Shown here: piece after piece, positions 2,453 through 61,020 of the stretch
Layout of the letters: the number at the start of each line of letters is the position of its first letter
How positions within the stretch are numbered: the first letter of the stretch is position 1
Origin: an uncultured Verrucomicrobiota bacterium
GTDB lineage: Bacteria; Verrucomicrobiota; Verrucomicrobiia; Chthoniobacterales; JACTMZ01
Direction of reading: 5' to 3'
NCBI GenBank assembly: GCA_903953565.1
Contig: CAJBKE010000033.1
Location: forward strand, 115,210-179,209
Length of the DNA stretch: 64,000 nt
Program-made: the position numbers and the translations under genes
Notes under the pieces: model-generated
Database searches by the model: none
What the model saw: only the letters and a program-made list of their open reading frames with translations
What the model was told of the DNA's origin: nothing

Positions 2453-2709
2453 CCACAGCCGGAGCGTAGCGAAGACGGCGTGAGGCGAAGCCGAGGGCAA
2501 ATTGACGCGGGACTGAAAAGGCGTTAGCCACGGATTAGCGCGGATTAAACGCAGGATAAGTCCGGGCGGCTGCGCCGACCGGACTTAGGGGAATACTCAC
2601 ACCAAGATGACCTTTGGTGCTCGCGATTAGTCTGCCGGAAAAGAGAATTCGGATTTAGGGAGAAAAAGTTGGTGCGCGTGTGCGCGCGGCAACTAATCCT
2701 CGTTGTTAA
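2451..2709. repeat. Composite multi-hairpin interspersed element (intergenic copy)
   Basis: agccacagccggagcg...; agccacggattagcgcggattaaacgcaggat; hairpin 1 AAGTCCGG..CCGGACTT (2558-2586); hairpin 2 CACCAA..TTGGTG (2600-2619); hairpin 3 GTTGGTGCGCGTGTGCGCGCGGCAAC (2668-2693); tail taatcctcgttgttaa. Confidence 0.8.
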
Positions 2710-2832: not shown

Positions 2833-4665
2833 ATGCAACTCCTCACTCTTGAGCGAAGCCAGAGCGCGAAGCTTTTCTGGCTGATCGTCGCGCTCTTGGG
2901 AGTGGTGATGATCTGGACGGCGAAACAGACCGATCCGGGAATCGTAGCCACCGCAATGGCTTTGGGACTGGTTGCCGCCTTCCCCTTTCACCTTTGGCTG
3001 TCCGGGGCTTCGCATGGTCTGCCCATCTGGCCGGTCTTTGCCTTGATCAATGGTGCAACGGCCGCATTGCCCATGATTCAAGATCCCGTGACGCTCGAGT
3101 CTTACCAACCGTCGGAGATCATCATCGGTGGACTGACCATGATGTTTTTCATCGGTCTCGGCACTTTGACTTGGCTCGCAATCACCGCACGTAGGTCTCA
3201 AGCGCCGAGGGACATCCTCATGATTTCACGCCAACACGCGGACCGATATCTCTTCGCCTTCATCGTCGCGGGTCTCTTTTTCCAACTCAATCAGATCGGC
3301 TATTGGATCGCTTTGCCCGGAAATTCCATGCAGGTGGTGCGCGGGGTGACAATGTCACTCAATACGATGGGTATCTTTGTTCTCGCTTTCTACGCGGGGC
3401 GAAAAATGCTGACCAAGCCCCAAGAGGTGGCGTTGGTCGCCTTGGCGGCGGCGACCGCGCTCGTTATGGCCTCGGGCTTAATCATGGCCTCGGCGATCGT
3501 TCCGGTTGCCATGCTGCTCCTGGGCTATGCCTTGGGCAGCGGGACGATGCCCTGGAAGGGTTTGGGAGTTGTGTTCCTCGCCGCGGCTTTGCTGCATCCG
3601 GGAAAATATGCCATGCGGGAACTTTATTGGGGCCCAGAGAGCCCGCAATTCACGGTTTGGACGCTGCCTCAATTTTATGCGGAGTGGTTCGGTCAAGGCG
3701 TCGAGGGGGTCGGCGCGCTTGCGGGCGGCACAAGCCAGAAGCGCGAGGACGCCGAGTCGTCGACTATCTTCGAGCGGGCCGGCAACTTGCACATGCTCCT
3801 GTTGGTGCAGCAGAAGTCACCTGATCAGGTGCCATTTCTCAACGGGCTGACCTATGAACCTATTCCGCGGCTGCTCATTCCGCGGTTCTTGGATCGTGAC
3901 AAGGGCATTAGCCACGCCGGAAATGTGCTGCTGACGGTGAACTACGGCGTGCAAACGCTCGAGCAGACTGCGACCACGTCCATCGCATGGGGACTGGTGT
4001 CGGAGGCGTATGCAAACTTCGGCTACATCGGGGTGGTGCTGTTGGCTGTTTTTTTGGGGATTTTCTACGGATCTTTCACCAACTTGAGTGTGGGAGTTCC
4101 CATGACCTCGCTGCGCTTTGTGCTTGGACTACTTATTCTGGGCGCAGCGACCAAAGCGGACACCATGGGTGTTTTCTTGACGCAGCAATTCCAAGGAATT
4201 GTCGGCGTGAGCTTGGCAGCTCTGGTGCTGATGAAGCGGCAGAGCAATCCGTTCGCCACCGAAGGCGGCCGCGAAGGTATGCGGCATACGGCAGAAGGAA
4301 GTGAATCTAAAAGACAGCCGAGTTTGCGAGACGGGTTGCCAAGCAACCAACTGACAAGAGACGAAAAGAGCAAGAGACTGGGGGGAGATGCGCCTTTGCA
4401 CGCGGTGACTCCGGCGGGACAAGTGACGGGTGATGGAGGAATGGTGCGGACTTTGCCGATCAGGACGCCGAAGCGGATTGCTTCGTGGATGCCGAGGAGG
4501 GTGAGGGCAGCGGTGGTTGCGCAGTATGCTGCGCAGGAAATCGGTGGTGAGGAGGGAGAGGTGAAGGGACCAAGAGACCAAGAGTCTAAAAGACCAAAAG
4601 ATGGGAGCGAGAGACCGCGGCAGGTGGCGGTGCCGTATCAGAATTATAGACGCTATCGGGGGTAG
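2833..4665 (+). CDS. Multi-pass membrane protein, probable Wzy-type oligosaccharide repeat-unit polymerase, with repeat-derived C-terminal tail
   Basis: Many hydrophobic segments; position among EPS glycosyltransferases; hydrophilic low-complexity tail after about residue 475. Confidence 0.6.
   Translation: MQLLTLERSQSAKLFWLIVALLGVVMIWTAKQTDPGIVATAMALGLVAAFPFHLWLSGASHGLPIWPVFALINGATAALPMIQDPVTLESYQPSEIIIGGLTMMFFIGLGTLTWLAITARRSQAPRDILMISRQHADRYLFAFIVAGLFFQLNQIGYWIALPGNSMQVVRGVTMSLNTMGIFVLAFYAGRKMLTKPQEVALVALAAATALVMASGLIMASAIVPVAMLLLGYALGSGTMPWKGLGVVFLAAALLHPGKYAMRELYWGPESPQFTVWTLPQFYAEWFGQGVEGVGALAGGTSQKREDAESSTIFERAGNLHMLLLVQQKSPDQVPFLNGLTYEPIPRLLIPRFLDRDKGISHAGNVLLTVNYGVQTLEQTATTSIAWGLVSEAYANFGYIGVVLLAVFLGIFYGSFTNLSVGVPMTSLRFVLGLLILGAATKADTMGVFLTQQFQGIVGVSLAALVLMKRQSNPFATEGGREGMRHTAEGSESKRQPSLRDGLPSNQLTRDEKSKRLGGDAPLHAVTPAGQVTGDGGMVRTLPIRTPKRIASWMPRRVRAAVVAQYAAQEIGGEEGEVKGPRDQESKRPKDGSERPRQVAVPYQNYRRYRG
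4563..4602. repeat. Phased octamer array (NNNNAGAC-like) in the 3' end of the Wzy-like gene
   Basis: gaagggac caagagac caagagtc taaaagac caaaagat. Confidence 0.8.
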
Positions 4666-4720: not shown

Positions 4721-4894
4721 TGCCACGGATAGACGCGGGTTAGCGCGGATAAGTCCGGCCGCCTGCACCGACCGGACTTGGGGGAATGCTCACACCAAGA
4801 TGACCTTTGGTGCTCGCAATGGACCGCATAACAGAGACTTTTTGAGACTAGGAGTTGGCGCGCGTGTGCGCGCGGCAACTAATCCTCGTTGTTA
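4721..4894. repeat. Multi-hairpin interspersed element (intergenic copy)
   Basis: gccacggatagacgcgggttagcgcggat; hairpin 1 AAGTCCGG..CCGGACTT; hairpin 2 CACCAA..TTGGTG; hairpin 3 GTTGGCGCGCGTGTGCGCGCGGCAAC (4854-4879); taatcctcgttgttaa. Confidence 0.8.
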
Positions 4895-4975
4895 AGAGCG
4901 TTAATTTGACCGCTTCGCTCAACTCTTTGAGTTGTCTGTCTCCCTTCGCTCGGCTGTGGCTAAAAATTGTCTTTG

Positions 4976-6103
4976 ATGAAAGTCCTCCACCATGAGCGGA
5001 AGCGTCTCGCTTCGCATTTTAGCATCGAGCGGCTGTTTGCCGAGATCCGGCGGTATATGCCGGCGGATTGCGAAATGACGTCGTGCCCGGCGCCGGAGGC
5101 GAGTGCGGGTATCTTGCCGCGTTGGCGCAACGTGCGGCATGCGGCGCGGCAGCAGGCGGATGTGCACCATATCGTGGGGGATTCGCATTATCTCGCCTTC
5201 GGCCTGCCACCGAAGAAAACGGTGCTGACCATCCATGATTGCGGGGCTTTGAATCGTTTGTCTGGGCTAAAGCGCGCGCTGCTGAAGTATTTTTGGTTCA
5301 CCGGTCCGATGCGGCGTGCTGCGGTGGTGACGACTATTTCACAGGCGTCGAAGGATGAATTGCGTAAGTGGGTCGGTCCGCTGGCGGACAAGGTCATAGT
5401 CGTTCCGGACTGCGTGTTCGGGGAGTTTGCTTATGACCCGAAGCCGTTCAATGAGGAGTGTCCGGTCGTGCTGCAGGTGGGGACGAAGTGGAATAAGAAT
5501 GTGGAACGAGTGATGGAAGCGGTGGGCGGGACGGGGTGTCGGTTGGAGATTGTCGGGGAGCTTAGCGAGAAACAAAAGGCAGGCCACGGATTAACACGGA
5601 TAAAAGGCAGGATAAGTCCGGGCGGCTGTGCCGACCGGACTGGGCAGGAGTGCTACGTGCTGGGTGACCCCAGCACTCGCAATGCGCCACCAGAGGGAAA
5701 GGCAACTGAACAGTTAGGCCATAGCCTAGTTCACGACCTCGGGAGGTTGACGGATGGGGAACTTGTCGAGGCTTACCGGCGGTGCGACATGGTGGTGTTT
5801 GCTTCGCTTTATGAGGGGTTCGGACTGCCGATCCTCGAGGCGCAGGCCATGGGGCGTCCGGTGATTACTTCGAATTTCGGGGCGATGAGCGAAGCAGCGG
5901 GCGACGGGGCGTTGATCGTCGATCCGTATTCGGTGGAGGCGATCCGGGATGCAATTTTGCGGGTGAAGAATGAGCCGGGGTTAAGGGAGGAGTTGATCGC
6001 GAAGGGACTGCGTAATGCAGCGAAGTTCAGCGCTGACGCTGTGGCGTTGAAATACGCTCGGATCTACAAGAATTTGGCCACAGCCGAGCGGAGTGAACCG
6101 TAG
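4976..6103 (+). CDS. Glycosyltransferase family 1 (GT4-like) with in-frame multi-hairpin element
   Basis: MKVLHHERKRLASHFSIERL; MVVFASLYEGFGLPILEAQAMGRPVITSNFGAMSEAAGDGALIVDP; insertion AGHGLTRIKGRISPGGCADRTGQECYVLGDPSTRNAPP. Confidence 0.85.
   Translation: MKVLHHERKRLASHFSIERLFAEIRRYMPADCEMTSCPAPEASAGILPRWRNVRHAARQQADVHHIVGDSHYLAFGLPPKKTVLTIHDCGALNRLSGLKRALLKYFWFTGPMRRAAVVTTISQASKDELRKWVGPLADKVIVVPDCVFGEFAYDPKPFNEECPVVLQVGTKWNKNVERVMEAVGGTGCRLEIVGELSEKQKAGHGLTRIKGRISPGGCADRTGQECYVLGDPSTRNAPPEGKATEQLGHSLVHDLGRLTDGELVEAYRRCDMVVFASLYEGFGLPILEAQAMGRPVITSNFGAMSEAAGDGALIVDPYSVEAIRDAILRVKNEPGLREELIAKGLRNAAKFSADAVALKYARIYKNLATAERSEP
5583..5690. repeat. Multi-hairpin interspersed element, copy inside a glycosyltransferase reading frame
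   Basis: gccacggattaacacggataaaaggcaggataagtccgggcggctgtgccgaccggactg...gtgctgggtgaccccagcac...ctcgcaatgcg. Confidence 0.9.
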
Positions 6104-6377
6104 GCGAAGCCGGAGATAGGTCGCCGCGGCGACCAAACAGATAAAGGCAATTTAGCCACGGATTAACGCGAATAGACACGGATAAGTCCGTTCGGCGCAG
6201 CGGAACGGACTGGAGTGAATGCTCATGCCGTGGGACCCACGGCAATCGCAGCGGTCTACCAAACCAGAAAGCAGTTTTGGACACTATGAGTTGGTGCGCG
6301 TGTGCGCGCGGCAACTAATCCTCGTCGTTTACCCTCTTCCATTTGCCTAAGGACTGTCTCGAAGACTCGGCTGTGGC
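6077..6377. repeat. 301-bp intergenic composite element bounded by a perfect 12-bp inverted repeat
   Basis: GCCACAGCCGAG (6077-6088) / CTCGGCTGTGGC (6366-6377); internal hairpins at 6119-6134, 6184-6211, 6226-6244, 6290-6315. Confidence 0.85.
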
Positions 6378-6392
6378 TAGAAAATTTCTGGA

Positions 6393-7886
6393 ATGAAAAT
6401 TCTCCACGTAGTGGCGCTCATCCAGGCTTCGACCGGGGGGCCGGCGGTTTCGGTGACCCGGTTGGCTTCGGAGCAGGCGAAGATGGGTCACGAGGTAACG
6501 CTGGCTTGCTTGGATTATCCGCACCTAGGTCCGCAAGTAGCGGCGCCGGGGGTGCGTATGGTTTCGGTGAAAGGAAACGTTCTCGCGGTGCGGGGGCGCG
6601 GATGGTGTCCGGAGTTTCGGCGCCTGCTGCGGGAGGAGGCTACAAAAGCGGATGTCGTGCACAATCATGGTTTGTGGATGTGGCCGAATGCTTATGCGCG
6701 GGAAGCAGCGGTAGCGGCGGGCAAGCCGTTGATCATTTCACCGCGGGGGATGCTCGAGGCTTGGTCGCTGGGTCGGAGCAAGCTGCGCAAGGCGGTGGCT
6801 TGGCGGTTGTTCGAGAGGAAGAATGTGCAGTCGGCGGTGATGTTTCATGCGACGGCCGCGAGCGAAGCTCGCAGTATTGAGGAAATTCTTAGCCACAGCC
6901 GACCGCAGGGAGACGGCGTGAGGCGAAGCCGAGGGCAAATTAACGCGAGCGGAGAAAAGGCAAGCCACGGATTAACGCGGATTAAAGGCAGGATAAGTCC
7001 GGGCGGCTGCGCCGACCGGACTGGAGGGGAATGCTCAAGCCCGGGGACCCCGGGCTCTCGCAATGCGTCCTCAAACGAAGACGGCATAAAACTTAAAACC
7101 ACCACCGGCGTGCCGATTGTTGTGGCTCCGAATGGGGTGGATTTGCCGGATTTGGGGCGTAGGCCGGGGCGGGAAATTCTCGAAAAGAAGTTTCCGCAGC
7201 TCAAAGACAGGCGATGGGTCGTGTTCATGTCACGGTTGCATCCGAAGAAAGGCAGCGACGTTTTGCTGCGCGCTTGGCGCAAGCAGCAAAACGTCGAGCA
7301 TGGAGCAGGCCTTCCGGCTCGTAGCGCCTACAGGTCGGAGAGGAGCATGGAGCAGGGGGCGAGTGAGAGGAAAGAGACTAAAAGACCGATAGACCAAGAG
7401 ACGAAGGACTCGCCTCTCCTCGTCCTCGCTGGTCCGGACCTAATTGGTTATCGGAAGGACATTGAGAGAATGATCAAGGAGCTTGGGCTCGGGCATTCTG
7501 TGGTGATAACGGGGGAAGTGGCGGGAGAGGAGAAAGACTGCTTGTTGGCTAATGCGGATGTTTTTGTGCTGCCGAGTTACTCAGAGAATTTTGGGATTGT
7601 CGTTGCGGAGGCGATGGCTTGGGGGCGTCCGGTAATTGCTTCGACGGGGACGCCTTGGAAAGAGATTGCTGACGTTGGTGCGGGGTGGTGGGTGAAACCG
7701 GAGGAGGATGCGCTCGCGCAGGCGCTGCACGAGGCGCTAGGCAAGGGGCGAGAGCAGTTGGATGCTATGGGTGCCAAGGGACGGGCCTTGGTTGAGCACC
7801 GCTATACTTGGGCTGAGCCGGCAGGCAAACTCGTGAGAGCTTATGAAGAAATTAGTGATCGAAAGACCAAAAGACAAAGAGACTAA
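6393..7886 (+). CDS. Glycosyltransferase family 1 (GT4-like) with two in-frame repeat-derived insertions
   Basis: MKILHVVALIQASTGGPAVSVTRLASEQ; VVFMSRLHPKKGSDVLLRAW; DVFVLPSYSENFGIVVAEAMAWGRPVIAS. Confidence 0.88.
   Translation: MKILHVVALIQASTGGPAVSVTRLASEQAKMGHEVTLACLDYPHLGPQVAAPGVRMVSVKGNVLAVRGRGWCPEFRRLLREEATKADVVHNHGLWMWPNAYAREAAVAAGKPLIISPRGMLEAWSLGRSKLRKAVAWRLFERKNVQSAVMFHATAASEARSIEEILSHSRPQGDGVRRSRGQINASGEKASHGLTRIKGRISPGGCADRTGGECSSPGTPGSRNASSNEDGIKLKTTTGVPIVVAPNGVDLPDLGRRPGREILEKKFPQLKDRRWVVFMSRLHPKKGSDVLLRAWRKQQNVEHGAGLPARSAYRSERSMEQGASERKETKRPIDQETKDSPLLVLAGPDLIGYRKDIERMIKELGLGHSVVITGEVAGEEKDCLLANADVFVLPSYSENFGIVVAEAMAWGRPVIASTGTPWKEIADVGAGWWVKPEEDALAQALHEALGKGREQLDAMGAKGRALVEHRYTWAEPAGKLVRAYEEISDRKTKRQRD
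6893..7066. repeat. Composite multi-hairpin element inserted in frame in a glycosyltransferase
   Basis: agccacagccgaccgcagggagacggcgtgaggcgaagccgagggcaaattaacgcg + gccacggattaacgcggattaaaggcaggat + AAGTCCGG..CCGGACTG + AGCCCGGGGACCCCGGGCT + ctcgcaatg. Confidence 0.9.
7371..7410. repeat. Phased octamer array (5 units NNNNAGAC)
   Basis: aaagagac taaaagac cgatagac caagagac gaaggact; encodes KETKRPIDQETKDS within the GT. Confidence 0.8.
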
Positions 7887-7947: not shown

Positions 7948-9105
7948 ATGAAAATCACCATTGCTACAGGGCCGATTTTTCCGGTGCCGGCTGTGCGCGG
8001 CGGGGCGGTGCAGCGGCTGTGGGACGGATTGGCACGGGAGTTTGTGCAGCGGGGGCATGAGGTGACGATTTTTGCGCGGGAGTTTCCCGGTCAGGCGACC
8101 GAGGAGACGGTCGATGGAATTCGCTATGTGCGGCGGGGTGGTTACGAGCAGAGCACGTCGATCAAACGGGATTTGGTACAATGCCTGCTTTATGCGTTGA
8201 AAACGGCGCGGCATGTGCCTCCGGGTGATGTGGTGGTTACGAACGATTTTTGGATGCCTGCCATTTTGCCGTGGTTTAACGGGAAAGTCGGCGGGGTGAT
8301 CGCCAGCATCGCCCGTTTTCCGAAGCGTCAATTTTTCCTCTACAAAAAATGTGCAGCAATCGCTCCGGTATCCGGAAGTGTAGCCCGGGGCATCCGCGAC
8401 CAGACGCCGTGCATTGCGGACAAAGTCACCGTGGTGCCGAACTGTGTTGATGCGGCTTTTCTCGATCCATTGCCAAGCAAGCAGCCCAAAGCCGTAGTGC
8501 GTGTTCTTTTTGTCGGGCGGATTCATCCGGAGAAGGGGTTGGGGTTGCTGGCAAACGCGCTGCGTTTGCTGGCAGCTAGAGACCAAAAGACCAAAAGACC
8601 AAAAGACGAAGAGCTTGGATGGGAGTGTGTGTTGGTCGGGCCGGTGAAGCAGAGTGAGGGCGGTGGCGGCGAAATGTTTGCCGAGGAGTTGAAGCGACAA
8701 CTCGCCGGTTTGCCCGTTAGGTTTCGGTCGCCGGTCTATAGTCCACGCGAGTTGGCCGCCGTGTACGACACGGGAGATATACTTCTCTACCCTTCGGTTG
8801 CGGAAACAGGTGAAGCTATGCCTCTGGCTCCCCTCGAGGGTATGGCGAGGGGGCTCGTGCCTGTTGTATCGGATATCGCCGCCTTCCGCGAATATCTCGA
8901 GCCGGGTGCGAATGGGATAGTGTTCGATCATCGGACGCCCCAGGCAGCAGCGAATTTGGCCGCATCGCTGCGGGACTTGATCGGAGATCCGGCCCGGCGC
9001 GAACGGATGGGCACGGCGGCGCGGCAGACGGCGGAGAACTTTTCCCCGGCGGCCGTTGCAGATAAATACCTGCAACTGTTCGAAAAGGTGATATCAGGCA
9101 CGTGA
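7948..9105 (+). CDS. Glycosyltransferase family 1 (GT4-like)
   Basis: MKITIATGPIFPVPAVRGGAVQRLWDGLAREF; VLFVGRIHPEKGLGLLANAL; DILLYPSVAETGEAMPLAPLEGMARG. Confidence 0.88.
   Translation: MKITIATGPIFPVPAVRGGAVQRLWDGLAREFVQRGHEVTIFAREFPGQATEETVDGIRYVRRGGYEQSTSIKRDLVQCLLYALKTARHVPPGDVVVTNDFWMPAILPWFNGKVGGVIASIARFPKRQFFLYKKCAAIAPVSGSVARGIRDQTPCIADKVTVVPNCVDAAFLDPLPSKQPKAVVRVLFVGRIHPEKGLGLLANALRLLAARDQKTKRPKDEELGWECVLVGPVKQSEGGGGEMFAEELKRQLAGLPVRFRSPVYSPRELAAVYDTGDILLYPSVAETGEAMPLAPLEGMARGLVPVVSDIAAFREYLEPGANGIVFDHRTPQAAANLAASLRDLIGDPARRERMGTAARQTAENFSPAAVADKYLQLFEKVISGT
8576..8607. repeat. Phased octamer array (ctagagac caaaagac x3) inside GT gene
   Basis: ctagagac caaaagac caaaagac caaaagac; encodes ARDQKTKRPKD. 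Confidence 0.85.
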
Positions 9106-9665: not shown

Positions 9666-10499
9666 GTGTTTTCCATCCTCATCCTGACGAAAAACGAGGA
9701 GGCCAATATCGCGGCCTGTCTCGATTCGGTGGCGTGGTGCGACGATGTGGTGGTCTTGGATTCGCACAGCACGGACCGAACGCGGGATATCGCGGTGGCG
9801 CGCGGGGCGCGCGTCTTCGAGAGGGTTTTCGATGACTTCGGGGCCCAGCGGAACTATGCCCTGGATCAGGTCGAATTCCGTTATCCTTGGGTGTTCCACC
9901 TAGATGCGGATGAGCGGTTCAACGATGCCCTGCAGCGGGAGTGCGAGGAGGCGATCGCGAAGGACGAGTGCAGTGCCTACTTCGTAGCCAACCGGATTAT
10001 TTTTCTCGGGCGCTGGATCAAGCACAGCTCGCAGTATCCTTACCATCAGGTGCGGTTGGTGAAACGGGGTGAAGCGCGGTTTGCCAAGGCGGGGCATGGT
10101 CAGCGGGAAGATGCACCGCATCGCGGGGCCGGGTATTTGCAAACTCCCTACGACCACCTGAACTTCAGCAAAGGCATCGCCGACTGGGTGGACCGTCATA
10201 ATCGCTACTCGAGCGAGGAGGCAGCAGAAGCGGCGGCGCTCTGCGAGGGGCCGCTGCCTCTAGGTGATCTTCTTTCCGGTGACTCGCTGGCGCGGAAGCG
10301 GGCGCTGAAGCGTCTGCATGCGCGGTTGCCGGCGCGGTGGTTGTGGAAGTTTCTGTATCTTTATGTGGGCAAGGGGGGATTTCTCGACGGGTATCCGGGT
10401 TTCGCCTACTGCATGTTGAATGGGTTTTATGACTTTTTGATTTCCGTGAAGATCTCGGAGACCAGATCGAGAAGACAGGCCACGGATAGACACGGATGA
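9666..10499 (+). CDS. Glycosyltransferase family 2 (WaaE/KdtX-like)
   Basis: FSILILTKNEEANIAACLDSVAWCDDVVVLDSHSTDRTRDIA; FHLDADER; GTG start; stop codon lies in an interspersed element. Confidence 0.85.
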   Translation: MFSILILTKNEEANIAACLDSVAWCDDVVVLDSHSTDRTRDIAVARGARVFERVFDDFGAQRNYALDQVEFRYPWVFHLDADERFNDALQRECEEAIAKDECSAYFVANRIIFLGRWIKHSSQYPYHQVRLVKRGEARFAKAGHGQREDAPHRGAGYLQTPYDHLNFSKGIADWVDRHNRYSSEEAAEAAALCEGPLPLGDLLSGDSLARKRALKRLHARLPARWLWKFLYLYVGKGGFLDGYPGFAYCMLNGFYDFLISVKISETRSRRQATDRHG

Positions 10500-10580
10500 A
10501 AGGCAGGATAAGTCCGTTCGACCGCGCGACCGGACTTGAGGAGATGCGGCTGACAGATGACCTTGTCCGCCGCAAATCGT
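10478..10580. repeat. Multi-hairpin interspersed element overlapping the 3' end of the GT2 gene
   Basis: gccacggatagacacggatgaaaggcaggat; AAGTCCGttcgaccgcgcgacCGGACTT (10510-10537); GCGGCTGACAgatgaccttGTCCGCCGC (10546-10573). Confidence 0.8.
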
Positions 10581-10679
10581 CCGCCAAGCAAGGAGGCAAG
10601 TGAACAAGAAGGCCTCACACGCACAAGGACAGGTTATGCAAAAACCAAAATCCTTGTCGGCCTCGACAAACTTCGCCCT

Positions 10680-24837: not shown

Positions 24838-24926
24838 CGGCAAAGCATGGATGCTAACTGCGGATGGCGCGGAGGGCACGGAGAAAGGATCGGCTCGGGG
24901 CTGCCCCGCGGCTTCGGGGAGGGTGT

Positions 24927-26486
24927 CTACTTGCCGCCGAACGAACAGACTTTGAGCACGGTCTTGAGAAGGATTTCCACGTCGAGAACGAGGGAGTAGT
25001 TTTTGATGTAGTAGAGGTCGTAGCGCAGTTTCTCGATGGCGTCATCGAGGCCCGAGCCGTAGCGGTAATTGACTTGGGCCCAGCCGGTGATGCCGGGTTT
25101 GACCAGGTGGCGCAGATGGTAGCTGGGGATCTTCGTCTCGTAATCGGCCACAATGCGCGACCACTCGGCGCGCGGTCCGACGATACTCATGTCGCCGAGG
25201 AGGACGTTGAATATTTGCGGCAACTCGTCGAGTCGGACAAGACGGAGAAGCCGTCCCACGCGGGTCACACGCGTGTCGTTGTCGCGCGTGTAAGGGTCGT
25301 CCTCGTTGTCGCGCACACGCATGGTGCGGAACTTGAGCAGGGTGAACTTCCTTTCTCCGCGCCCGATGCGCTCTTGCCGGAAAAGGATCGGGAAACCGCT
25401 GTCGATCAGCACGGCGATGGCAACCAGCGCCATGAGTGGCAGAGCGACCGGGAGGACGGCGAGGGCCAGGAAGTAATCCATGCCGGTTTTGAGGTAGCGG
25501 TAGGCGGAATGACGGGCGAGTTGGAAGTTCTGACGCAGGGCCCAGTAATGGTCGAGGCGGTGGACTGATTCCTTGCGCCAGATTTCACTGAAGAAGGTGT
25601 CCTCGCTGTAAACCGGAATACGGAGGAAATGAAGTCGTGCCAATTTCTCGAGCAGCGCCGCGGGATAAGCGGAGGGCGGATCGGTCAGCACGATGCCTTC
25701 GAAGTCTTGCGCGCGCCGTGCCGCTTCGTGGGCGGGGGCCAGCGGTTCCGGGCGCGAAGCCTCCTGTAGAATGGTGCGCGGCGAGACACGGAGAGCGCGC
25801 GCCTGGTCATCCATCAATTCGCCGACGACCTGCAGATTGAGTCCGGCCAGGACGATGGGATTGTGGAAGTCCATGCGCTCGCAGTAACGGGCGAAATCCG
25901 AAAGCTCCGAGTTTGTGCCGATGGCAAGGTAAGGCACGCGGCGGGCGCGGCGTGTCCAGACCGAAGCGGCCAACAGACGCAGTCCGAGCGCGGGCAGCGC
26001 GTAACCGACGGCCGTGTAGAAAAGCACCACGCGGCTTTGTGCGGTGTAGAAATCACCGGCCGAGAAGAAAACAAAGAGAATGAACGCGCCGACCGAAGCC
26101 CCGATGATCACGGCGAGGATGAACTCCGCGGCGAAGTGCAGCGCCTGAAAAGTGCGGCGGGCTTTGTAGCCACCGATGAGGCCCACGGCGGTAAGAATGC
26201 AGATAAAAAAGACACCGACCTGCACGAGGTAAGCGGGCGACATTTCCAACGCTTGATTGACCCGGATAGTGCGGCTGAGGAGGTAAGCTCCACTGACCAA
26301 CACAAGATCGGCGAGAAAGAGACTCAGACTGGTGAACCACGGTTGCCGCAAAATATTGCGCAAGACAGAGGCATCGCCGGTCCCGGATTCCGTGCTGATC
26401 TCGACCGTGCTCTTGGCTGAAGCGTCTTCGGGCTGAGGGAGATGCGACGATTGAGCTGTGGTGATCACAGAGGTGGGTGCCGACAT
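24927..26486 (-). CDS. Polyprenyl-phosphate sugar-1-phosphate transferase (WcaJ/WbaP-like exopolysaccharide initiation enzyme)
   Basis: C-terminus FRQERIGRGERKFTLLKFRTMR...RLDELPQIFNVLLGDMSIVGPRAEW...KPGITGWAQVNYRYG. Confidence 0.9.
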   Translation of the reverse strand: MSAPTSVITTAQSSHLPQPEDASAKSTVEISTESGTGDASVLRNILRQPWFTSLSLFLADLVLVSGAYLLSRTIRVNQALEMSPAYLVQVGVFFICILTAVGLIGGYKARRTFQALHFAAEFILAVIIGASVGAFILFVFFSAGDFYTAQSRVVLFYTAVGYALPALGLRLLAASVWTRRARRVPYLAIGTNSELSDFARYCERMDFHNPIVLAGLNLQVVGELMDDQARALRVSPRTILQEASRPEPLAPAHEAARRAQDFEGIVLTDPPSAYPAALLEKLARLHFLRIPVYSEDTFFSEIWRKESVHRLDHYWALRQNFQLARHSAYRYLKTGMDYFLALAVLPVALPLMALVAIAVLIDSGFPILFRQERIGRGERKFTLLKFRTMRVRDNEDDPYTRDNDTRVTRVGRLLRLVRLDELPQIFNVLLGDMSIVGPRAEWSRIVADYETKIPSYHLRHLVKPGITGWAQVNYRYGSGLDDAIEKLRYDLYYIKNYSLVLDVEILLKTVLKVCSFGGK

Positions 26487-26613: not shown

Positions 26614-28581
26614 CTACTCTGCTGGCGCGCTTTCCGTGGCCGCGCTGTTGCCGCCCGATAGTTCCTCGGGAACAGGTGCTCCCTGGGGGTTCATGAGGTC
26701 TTCGGTGAATTCCGTGCTTTCTTCGACTGCTACAGGTGCCGTCTCCTCGCCGGGCGGCTCTTCTTTGGGTTCCTCTTCTTTCGTTTTCTCGGGCGGTTTG
26801 TAGTCCTTCAACAACTTGGAAAGAATATCGCCGATGAGCGGTGCGGCGGTGCTTCCGCCGGCCACTGTCTCGCCCGCGTTTCCTTCCACCACCACGGAGA
26901 AAGCATAGAGCGGCGGGTGGTTAGCCGGGGCGTAACCGGCGAACCATGCGGCGTTGCGGCGCTTGCTCACGGGTCCCCATTGCGCGGTGCCGGTTTTGCC
27001 GGCTACTTTCACCCCGCGAACGGTGGCGGCTCGGCGCCCGGTGCCGGTGCCGTGACTGGTGACCATGACGAGACCTTTGTCCACCGCCTCGAGGTTGGGC
27101 TCGTCGATGTTCAACTCCGCCCGGACGCGGTCGGGGTACGCGGCGATGACTTTGTTGTCGAGGCTCTGCACCTGCTTGACCAAGCGGGTCTGGTGGAAGC
27201 TGCCCTTGGCCGCAATCACGCCCATGGCCGCGGCCATCTGCAGCGGAGTGACGAGGATGTCTCCCTGCCCGATGCTCATGTTGGCGATGTCGCCCTGCAG
27301 GATGTTGCGGTTGTGGACGCGCAGCATGTAGTCGTCGGTCGGAATGTTGCCCGGCGACTCGGCACGGAGCGGGATCCCGGTGCGCTTACCGAATCCCAAG
27401 GCATCGGCCCAATCGATGATCGGGGCGGCGCCGATTTTCAAACCGACCTGGTAGAACCAGGTGTTGCACGACTGGGCGAGCGCTTGGGCGAGGGTCAAAC
27501 GGCCGGAGTGCCCGGAGCGGTGGTTGCGGAAATAGAAATTTCCGACCTGCAAACCGCCCGGACAACTCACCTTAGTGTCGGGCGCATAGAGGCCGGATTG
27601 CAGGGCGGCGAGGCCGACGAAGGTTTTGAATGTCGATCCCGGCGGATAGGCCGAGCGGAAGGCGCGGGGATAAAGCGGCACGGCGGGGTCGTCGTTCAGC
27701 TTGGCGAATGCATCCGCCTTGATCATCGGGATAAAGGCGTTCGGATCGAACGACGGGCGCGAGGCCATTCCGAGAATTTCTCCGTTGTTGGGATCGACCA
27801 CGACAATGGCGCCGCGCCGTCCGGACTTGGCGAGGGCTTCCTCGCAGGCCTTCTGCACGGCGAGGTCGAGTGTGGTTATGACATTGTAGCCGGGGATCGG
27901 ATTCTCCACCATCCGTTCGGTCGTCCGCTTTCCTTCCGCATTGAGGGTGAGGTTGAGGACGCCCGGTGTGCCGCGCAGTTGGTCGTCGAAGCCCTGCTCC
28001 AATCCCTCGCGCCCCTCGGCATCGGGGAAGAGGAGGTCGCGGTTCTCGATCGGTTTGACCGACAGGGGTGCCACGCGTCCGGTGTAGCCTACGATGTGCG
28101 CGGCCATGTATCCGAGCGGGTAATGCCGGAAGTAGGCGGGTTGCAGCACGAGGCCGGTGCCAAGTCCGCGGCTCACCTTGGCCACATCCTCGCCGCTCAA
28201 ATCCTCCGCGAGGATCAAGGGCAGCACGCCGCGGTTGTTGTAGTGCTGAATGATCGCTTCATCGGTGACATCGAACGGCCGCGCCAGCAGATCCTGAGCG
28301 GTGAGGATTTGACTGCGCGCGAAATTGACCGCTTGCCCGTCGGTGAATTCGAGCGGGGTGGGAAAACTCAGGCCGAGATTGTAGCCCACGCGTGTCTGGG
28401 CCAACGGTGCGCCGTGGCGGTCGGTGATCTGTCCGCGCGGGGCGGGCACATTGAGCAGATAGGTGCGCGCTTGCTTCTGGGTCTCCCATGTGGGACGCGG
28501 CACCTCGACCACATCGGTCAGTCGCCTCTGGGCGTGACCTGTTGCGGCAAGGGCCAGCAGGAGAATGAAGAAAAGCGGCAT
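26614..28581 (-). CDS. mrdA: Penicillin-binding protein 2
   Basis: RGQITDRHGAPLAQTRVGYNL; AYPPGSTFKTFVGLAAL; KVAGKTGTAQWG. Confidence 0.92.
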   Translation of the reverse strand: MPLFFILLLALAATGHAQRRLTDVVEVPRPTWETQKQARTYLLNVPAPRGQITDRHGAPLAQTRVGYNLGLSFPTPLEFTDGQAVNFARSQILTAQDLLARPFDVTDEAIIQHYNNRGVLPLILAEDLSGEDVAKVSRGLGTGLVLQPAYFRHYPLGYMAAHIVGYTGRVAPLSVKPIENRDLLFPDAEGREGLEQGFDDQLRGTPGVLNLTLNAEGKRTTERMVENPIPGYNVITTLDLAVQKACEEALAKSGRRGAIVVVDPNNGEILGMASRPSFDPNAFIPMIKADAFAKLNDDPAVPLYPRAFRSAYPPGSTFKTFVGLAALQSGLYAPDTKVSCPGGLQVGNFYFRNHRSGHSGRLTLAQALAQSCNTWFYQVGLKIGAAPIIDWADALGFGKRTGIPLRAESPGNIPTDDYMLRVHNRNILQGDIANMSIGQGDILVTPLQMAAAMGVIAAKGSFHQTRLVKQVQSLDNKVIAAYPDRVRAELNIDEPNLEAVDKGLVMVTSHGTGTGRRAATVRGVKVAGKTGTAQWGPVSKRRNAAWFAGYAPANHPPLYAFSVVVEGNAGETVAGGSTAAPLIGDILSKLLKDYKPPEKTKEEEPKEEPPGEETAPVAVEESTEFTEDLMNPQGAPVPEELSGGNSAATESAPAE

Positions 28582-60353: not shown

Positions 60354-60517
60354 GCAGTTTGATCACCGCTTTGCCGACGGTTAATCGGCTCCTGACAGGC
60401 ATCGGCTAGACCCCGGTGCCTGTCTTTTTTGTGCCAGGGATTGGTCTGTGGGGAAAATTCACCGGGAAGTGGGGCAATTCAAGCGAAAACCCGCCTTTTT
60501 TCATTGGCGGCCCGAGA

Positions 60518-61020
60518 AAATTTGGTGACGCGCCGACCTTTTTTGGCGACGCGCCGACTAAATTTGGTGAAGCGCCGAGTTAATTTGGCGAACGGCCGAT
60601 CAGATTTGCTCAAGCGCCGACTCAATTCGGTGGCGCGCCGACTAAATTTGGTGACGGCCCGACCTTTTTTGGTGACGCGCCGACTAAATTCGGCGACGCG
60701 CCGAGTTGTTTTGGCGAACAGCCGATCAGATTTGCTCAAGCGCCGACTAAATTTGCTGACACGCCACCAAATTTTCTCGGGCCGCCAATGAATTTTGCTC
60801 AACCGCCGACCAAATTTGCTGACGCGCCGACTATTTTTGCTGGCGCGCCGACTCATTTTGCCCAAGCGCCGACTATTTTTGCTCACGCGCCACCAAAATT
60901 TGCCCAAGCGCCGAGTTGATTTGCTGACGCGCCGACCAAATTTGCTGGCGCTTCACCAAATTTTGCTCAACCGCCAATAAATTTTGGCGAATGGCCGATC
61001 AAATTTGCCGCCGCTCCAGT
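60518..61020. repeat. Tandem array of about 24 degenerate 21-nt units (aaatttgSYgacgcgccgact)
   Basis: e.g. ttttttggcgacgcgccgact / aaatttggtgaagcgccgagt / taatttggcgaacggccgatc / agatttgctcaagcgccgact... Confidence 0.95.

Follow-up and report, generated by a model that had tools for sequence, protein, structure and literature searches.

A two-hairpin palindromic element in frame within glycosyltransferase genes of a Verrucomicrobiota bacterium, with periodic ends also found around GxxExxY genes

Rickettsia palindromic elements (RPEs) are 105-146 bp long, form strong stem-loops and occur in intergenic DNA as well as in frame in genes for conserved proteins (PMC2229807). The element described here was found in a 64,000-nucleotide stretch of an uncultured Verrucomicrobiota genome (the window, G000:C33:115210-179209; the genome comprises 2.86 Mb in 70 contigs). 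It resembles RPEs in its length of ~105-140 bp, its two covarying hairpins and its presence in frame within three genes for GT4-type glycosyltransferases (GTs) whose orthologues are insert-free. An earlier note on this DNA had drawn the RPE parallel, and the insertion logic is indeed the same, an interspersed palindrome being inserted in frame. The differences are that in-frame copies are few here and confined to polysaccharide GTs, and that, when the systems are compared by description, the ends have a 10-bp period, recur across many phyla and are common to a nuclease-gene unit, while the hairpin stems are replaced between copies. We refer to the 10-bp-periodic end, CCACGGAT-NN-RCRCGGAT, as the head.

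REP elements with RAYT transposases (GTAG/CGTC families) are short palindromes located mostly 3′ of genes and sometimes within them (PMC3733652). The present element is likewise a short palindrome, mostly downstream of genes and sometimes intragenic, but the unit is longer, contains two hairpins and lacks a fixed GTAG/CGTC tag, its aligned stems being preceded mostly by GGATAAG. The Y1 transposase domain (PF01797) had no match in this genome and was detected in the control genomes; a RAYT/Y1 transposase was thus rejected as the mover.

Bacterial MITEs (Correia/NEMIS, ERIC, RUP) combine terminal inverted repeats with a short non-coding core, and some lie in frame within genes (PMC2229807). Relatives of our element also have terminal inverted repeats and some copies are in frame. 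Unlike in MITEs, there is no target duplication to be seen and no known transposase, the cores are largely unrelated between copies and the ends are built of repeated 10-bp units. A candidate autonomous partner with the same ends is the putative head-GxxExxY-head unit present in another genome (G028) and on contig C52 of the genome studied here. We found no description of the repeat itself in open-access papers.

In-frame and intergenic copies

GT1 (4976..6103, plus strand) is a GT4-like glycosyltransferase whose Pfam domains (PF00534, PF13692 and PF13439) flank the insert on either side. Copy 1 (5583..5687, plus strand) consists of head, hairpin 1 and hairpin 2, reads HGLTRIKGRISPGGCADRTG... 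in translation and adds ~45 residues net. GT2 (6393..7886, plus strand; PF00534, PF13692 and PF13579) is also GT4-like, with GT4-type domains flanking an insert that holds copy 2 (6963..7067, plus strand). The two copies are 82-85% identical and score 95.6 and 105.1 bits, respectively, with a covariance model of which both were training sequences. The same model matches a third in-frame copy on the minus strand of another contig (C55:91864-91970), inside the GT4-type protein GT3. The inserts of GT1, GT2 and GT3 occupy different places of the fold.

The earlier note had placed the same element inside both window GTs and between the genes, and the peptides and the DNA are present at 5583 and 6963 as it described. 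Three intergenic copies, all on the plus strand, follow genes: 2526..2633 lies ~74 nt past the stop of the GT at 917-2452, 4721..4826 lies ~56 nt past the stop of the gene at 2833-4665, and 6154..6259, between GT1 and GT2, lies ~51 nt past the GT1 stop and is missing in the short spacer of a congener, G007. A further plus-strand copy (10478..10590) covers the 3′ end of a GT2-family gene (9666-10499) and provides its last residues and stop. All of these copies are on the same strand as the genes. The note had also stressed that both in-frame copies are read in one frame with no stop. Both are open, but this is less remarkable than it appeared, as the element has a single open forward frame, C-CAC-GGA-TTA-ACR-CGG (HGLTRI...), which explains why the copies share it. 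One of the closed forward frames stops immediately (ACG GAT TAA), and the other stops at the end of the head in copy 2 or within the hairpin 2 loop in copy 1. The copies thus had to share this frame in order to survive, and the sharing is no separate sign of design.

The intact frames and domains suggest that the GT inserts are translated. An AlphaFold model of GT2, with only six window proteins as input, is poor (mean pLDDT 59.6; residues 117-254 below 50) and agrees with a disordered insert without proving one. Other repeats occur in the window as well. The glycosyltransferase at 9-971 carries a long, degenerate in-frame repeat (RPEARGAGQEAIGGGREAGGNRHEAIG...) between its domains, at about residues 95-145. 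Octamer repeats of the AGACCAAA kind, translating as KTKRPKDQ-like peptides, form part of the reading frames of several genes in this locus (4548-4600, 7364-7410, 7853-7886 and 8569-8616), and an eighteen-fold array with 21-bp spacing (60489-61013) precedes a long repetitive sequence (61.6-63.6 kb).

The GT2 insert exceeds the element, opening with an extra repeat module (6884..6947, plus strand) immediately 5′ of copy 2 that is missing in orthologues. Thirty-seven nucleotides of the module are 97% identical to 2473-2509, and there is an inverted match to 4938-4968. Since the insert is composite in this way, local duplication or gene conversion of intergenic DNA in polysaccharide loci, seeding the GT copies without transposition, is a live alternative, though in our judgement a rather unlikely one. 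It would also fit the 77-nt tail common to three spacers and the clustering of copies in contigs C33 and C55. It fits poorly with full-length copies on C63 and in two sister species (G002 and G006), with the different fold positions of the three inserts, and with a full inverted-repeat element of another genome that lies in frame in a methyltransferase gene.

Paired hairpins and position relative to genes

Eleven aligned copies share the layout head, short spacer, hairpin 1, ~15 nt, hairpin 2 and tail, with TGAC-type hairpin loops. From this alignment RNAalifold predicts 17 pairs, seven with double changes. A count of pairs bears this out: paired cells amount to 90.3% against 79.3% in shuffled alignments and the covariation score is 0.371 against 0.168 (0 of 500 shuffles), and shifting the partner abolishes pairing. 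Helix 1 seldom varies, whereas the helix 2 stem is swapped wholesale yet still paired: all six of its pairs are altered on both sides between copies, and its arms pair at 7.8 of 9 positions within a copy against 3.9 of 9 between copies, around a loop near RTGACC. Stems that are replaced but remain paired suggest either some mechanism by which pairing is restored or selection acting on the folded strand.

In the consensus fold nothing at the 3′ end pairs with the head. With a head at just one of their ends, the two-hairpin in-frame copies are not of the simple inverted-repeat type. An integron attC-like site was considered and rejected, as the outer ends do not pair with each other. In two species (C55:87649-87767, locus L107, and a locus of G010, L103), a hairpin loop of the element harbours another small palindrome, GATTGCCTATGGG..CCATCT..GGCCTCCGGTTCC.

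Allowing one mismatch or none, we counted 38 head patterns across the 2.86 Mb of the genome and no match to the reversed control, which excludes chance. The covariance model finds 35 matches in the genome, of which 14 are full-length with ≥69 bits, and one match each in the two sister species of the same genus (G002:C112 and G006:C6). Three of the 14 (C63:26838, C33:77774 and C55:87649) come from outside the alignment, and the genome-wide search confirms that copies exist apart from GT genes.

Most non-coding full-length copies lie 0-75 nt 3′ of a stop codon, co-directional with transcription, and several provide the stop of the gene themselves, as after ...LATD and ...VVATD on C55. The antisense exceptions are two copies behind a KilA-N-like gene (an assignment from our own reading of the sequence), one on C63 and one in G002. 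On C63, two similar direct copies ~1.9 kb apart (24910-25013 and 26838-26942) flank this gene; in G002 the copy (C112:2631-2736) sits behind its counterpart.

Together with the strong hairpin covariation, the position past stop codons would suit a structured RNA or transcription element (a terminator, 3′ stabiliser or attenuator) in exopolysaccharide operons, the in-frame copies being by-products. We regard this as unlikely. The element matches no Rfam family (the first 14 kb of the window gave a tRNA only), the two copies behind the KilA-N-like gene are antisense, the orthologous G007 genes lack a copy and three copies are intragenic. In addition, a near-constant helix 1 beside a helix 2 that is swapped wholesale is unusual for a ligand-type RNA.

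Orthologues of the glycosyltransferases

Insert-free orthologues of all three proteins exist within the genus. In G007, GT1 and GT2 are adjacent without either insert and without the intergenic copy, the GT1 orthologue being 60% identical. The element is absent from the GT2 orthologue of G009, and the GT3 orthologue of G008, 62-70% identical over the matched parts, has no insert; the GT3 insert is also missing in G019, G016 and G033. Neither heads (at most one mismatch) nor covariance-model matches were found in G007, G008 or G009. As a separate observation, GT2 of G009 has a KTKRLKDQ-type repeat where the window GT2 bears yet another repeat insertion, and G007 has none there.

With a genome in 70 contigs and repeats of ~100 bp, an assembly artefact might have fused pieces of different genes at a repeat. 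This is very improbable: the two sides of each insert align to a single orthologue, which speaks against chimeras, and the GT1-GT2 order is preserved in G007. An ancestral origin of the segment within these glycosyltransferases, three of which carry it in frame, can be given practically no credence, as the segment is missing in every orthologue examined, differs in position among the three proteins and recurs as the same DNA between genes elsewhere.

Because the orthologues lack the segment, the GT copies are insertions and not ancestral peptide, and the foreign origin that had been proposed for them is borne out by alignment with G007, G008 and G009. Both checks by which the earlier note could have been refuted thus favour it, the segment being missing in orthologues and copies occurring apart from GT genes. 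At the level of sequence comparison, this establishes the GT inserts as insertions of an interspersed palindromic element into seemingly dispensable stretches of the glycosyltransferases.

Periodic ends across phyla and GxxExxY genes

Heads occur in 25 of 113 sampled genomes of the class, and all controls gave zero. A stricter triple head, CCACGGAT-NN-ACACGGAT-NN-ACACGGAT, was found in a scan of named genomes in at least about ten phyla among the matches listed. These include Acidobacteria, Verrucomicrobia, Planctomycetes groups, Kiritimatiellae, Lentisphaerae and Nitrospirae, and further several Proteobacteria, Bacteroidetes, Cloacimonadota and WOR-3; most of the listed matches are metagenome bins, but Thiohalobacter thiocyanaticus Hrh1, a named strain, is also listed. 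Viral carriage was rejected, the triple head being present in just 37 stretches of a collection of 2.9 million contigs.

In loci from other genomes, 94 of 159 heads have an inverted partner within 450 bp, the two heads bounding a short palindrome, and the centres are unrelated. The flanks of such pairs, read unsystematically, are often complementary (ttaa/ttaa, ttag/ctaa) and not direct repeats. Terminal inverted repeats are present in many relatives and in the genome itself at C52:279542-279697. An exact core pattern has no match in the loci analysed, for which it is too strict.

Among 269 unique heads from other genomes, a single credible in-frame case was found (L069), and of 18 combinations of an open reading frame with a head only this one looks credible, the remainder being probably shadow frames or false upstream extensions. 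In L069 (1315-2685, genome G063), the frame of an Eco57I/N6-type methyltransferase contains a full head-to-head palindromic element; the same open reading frame also reads an IS200-like (Y1) transposase domain. With this one case elsewhere and just three internal in-frame copies among ~38 heads in the genome, in-frame insertion appears rare, and the role in diversifying proteins that the earlier note had envisaged is therefore unsupported. That note had not noticed the spread of the ends across phyla, the in-frame copy in GT3 or the connection with GxxExxY genes.

Some of the longer centres between inverted heads encode a GxxExxY protein (PF13366/TIGR04256, PD-(D/E)XK superfamily). On C52, such a gene lies between heads (279170-279508; TIGR04256/PF13366, PDDEXK_3, 129.1 bits against a cut-off of 35). 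The GxxExxY genes on C66 and C60 have weak repeats by eye, below the threshold of the inverted-repeat test. In G028, contig C14 holds a compact unit of head, open frame (GxxExxY) and head, alongside which this genome carries head pairs that have the same ends but no gene. A search for the GxxExxY motif between head pairs found it in two of five of the 300-650 bp class, although this is too strict as a measure.

By eye, the flanks of GxxExxY genes in the class form inverted repeats of ~10-bp units with many sequences. The inverted-repeat score exceeds the maximum of 30 distant-window controls at 25 of 30 GxxExxY loci, in a test devised after the observation and on loci taken as the best-scoring family matches rather than at random. 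The median bracketing score is 20.5, against 8.0 for the distant windows; when flanks from different GxxExxY loci are paired, the median is 9.0 and the highest score 20.5. PF13366 is present in 21 of 25 head-positive against 37 of 88 head-negative genomes of the class (hand count), a co-occurrence confounded with genome size and kinship. We found no description of the function or the bracketing repeats of GxxExxY in open-access papers. As an association seen in sequence, the end of our element belongs with the periodic ends by which GxxExxY genes are bracketed as well.

Several observations bear on whether these units move. Counting against the reading that we favour below, four of the 25 head-positive genomes have no PF13366 match, neither a transposition event nor a target-site duplication is visible, and the in-frame copies bear a head at one end; copies are mostly co-directional with transcription, a bias that plain transposition does not predict. 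In two sets of loci (L264/L265/L280 and L271/L277), compared by eye, the gene neighbourhood is alike and GxxExxY is kept while both ends have changed alike, suggesting long residence over active movement. At the site corresponding to C52 in G006, both flanking genes are kept and a different palindromic insert is present, so this is not a clean empty site.

With moderate confidence, we read the element as an interspersed palindromic repeat that is non-autonomous, related to GxxExxY elements and tolerated within GTs. A GxxExxY or related PD-(D/E)XK enzyme might recognise the periodic inverted ends or the hairpins and then copy or move the unit; gene-less palindromes would spread in trans or be decayed remnants. 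The GT copies would persist by lying in loops away from the conserved cores of the domains and being read in the sole stop-free frame. We infer that the nuclease may move or copy the elements, but hold this to be somewhat doubtful. Still tentatively, GxxExxY genes with 10-bp-periodic inverted ends may represent an undescribed class of mobile DNA found in many phyla, as its autonomous members, of which gene-less palindromes, including those in glycosyltransferases, would be the non-autonomous members, the arms of ends and hairpins changing together through pairing-restoring copying.

The in-frame copies show independently that proteins can tolerate a palindromic DNA element, and since insert-free proteins of sister species exist, what the insert does to the enzyme can be tested directly. 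More broadly, an abundant and unexplained class of repeats is tied to one small family of nuclease-like proteins, which makes GxxExxY a concrete and testable candidate for the maker or spreader of these repeats.
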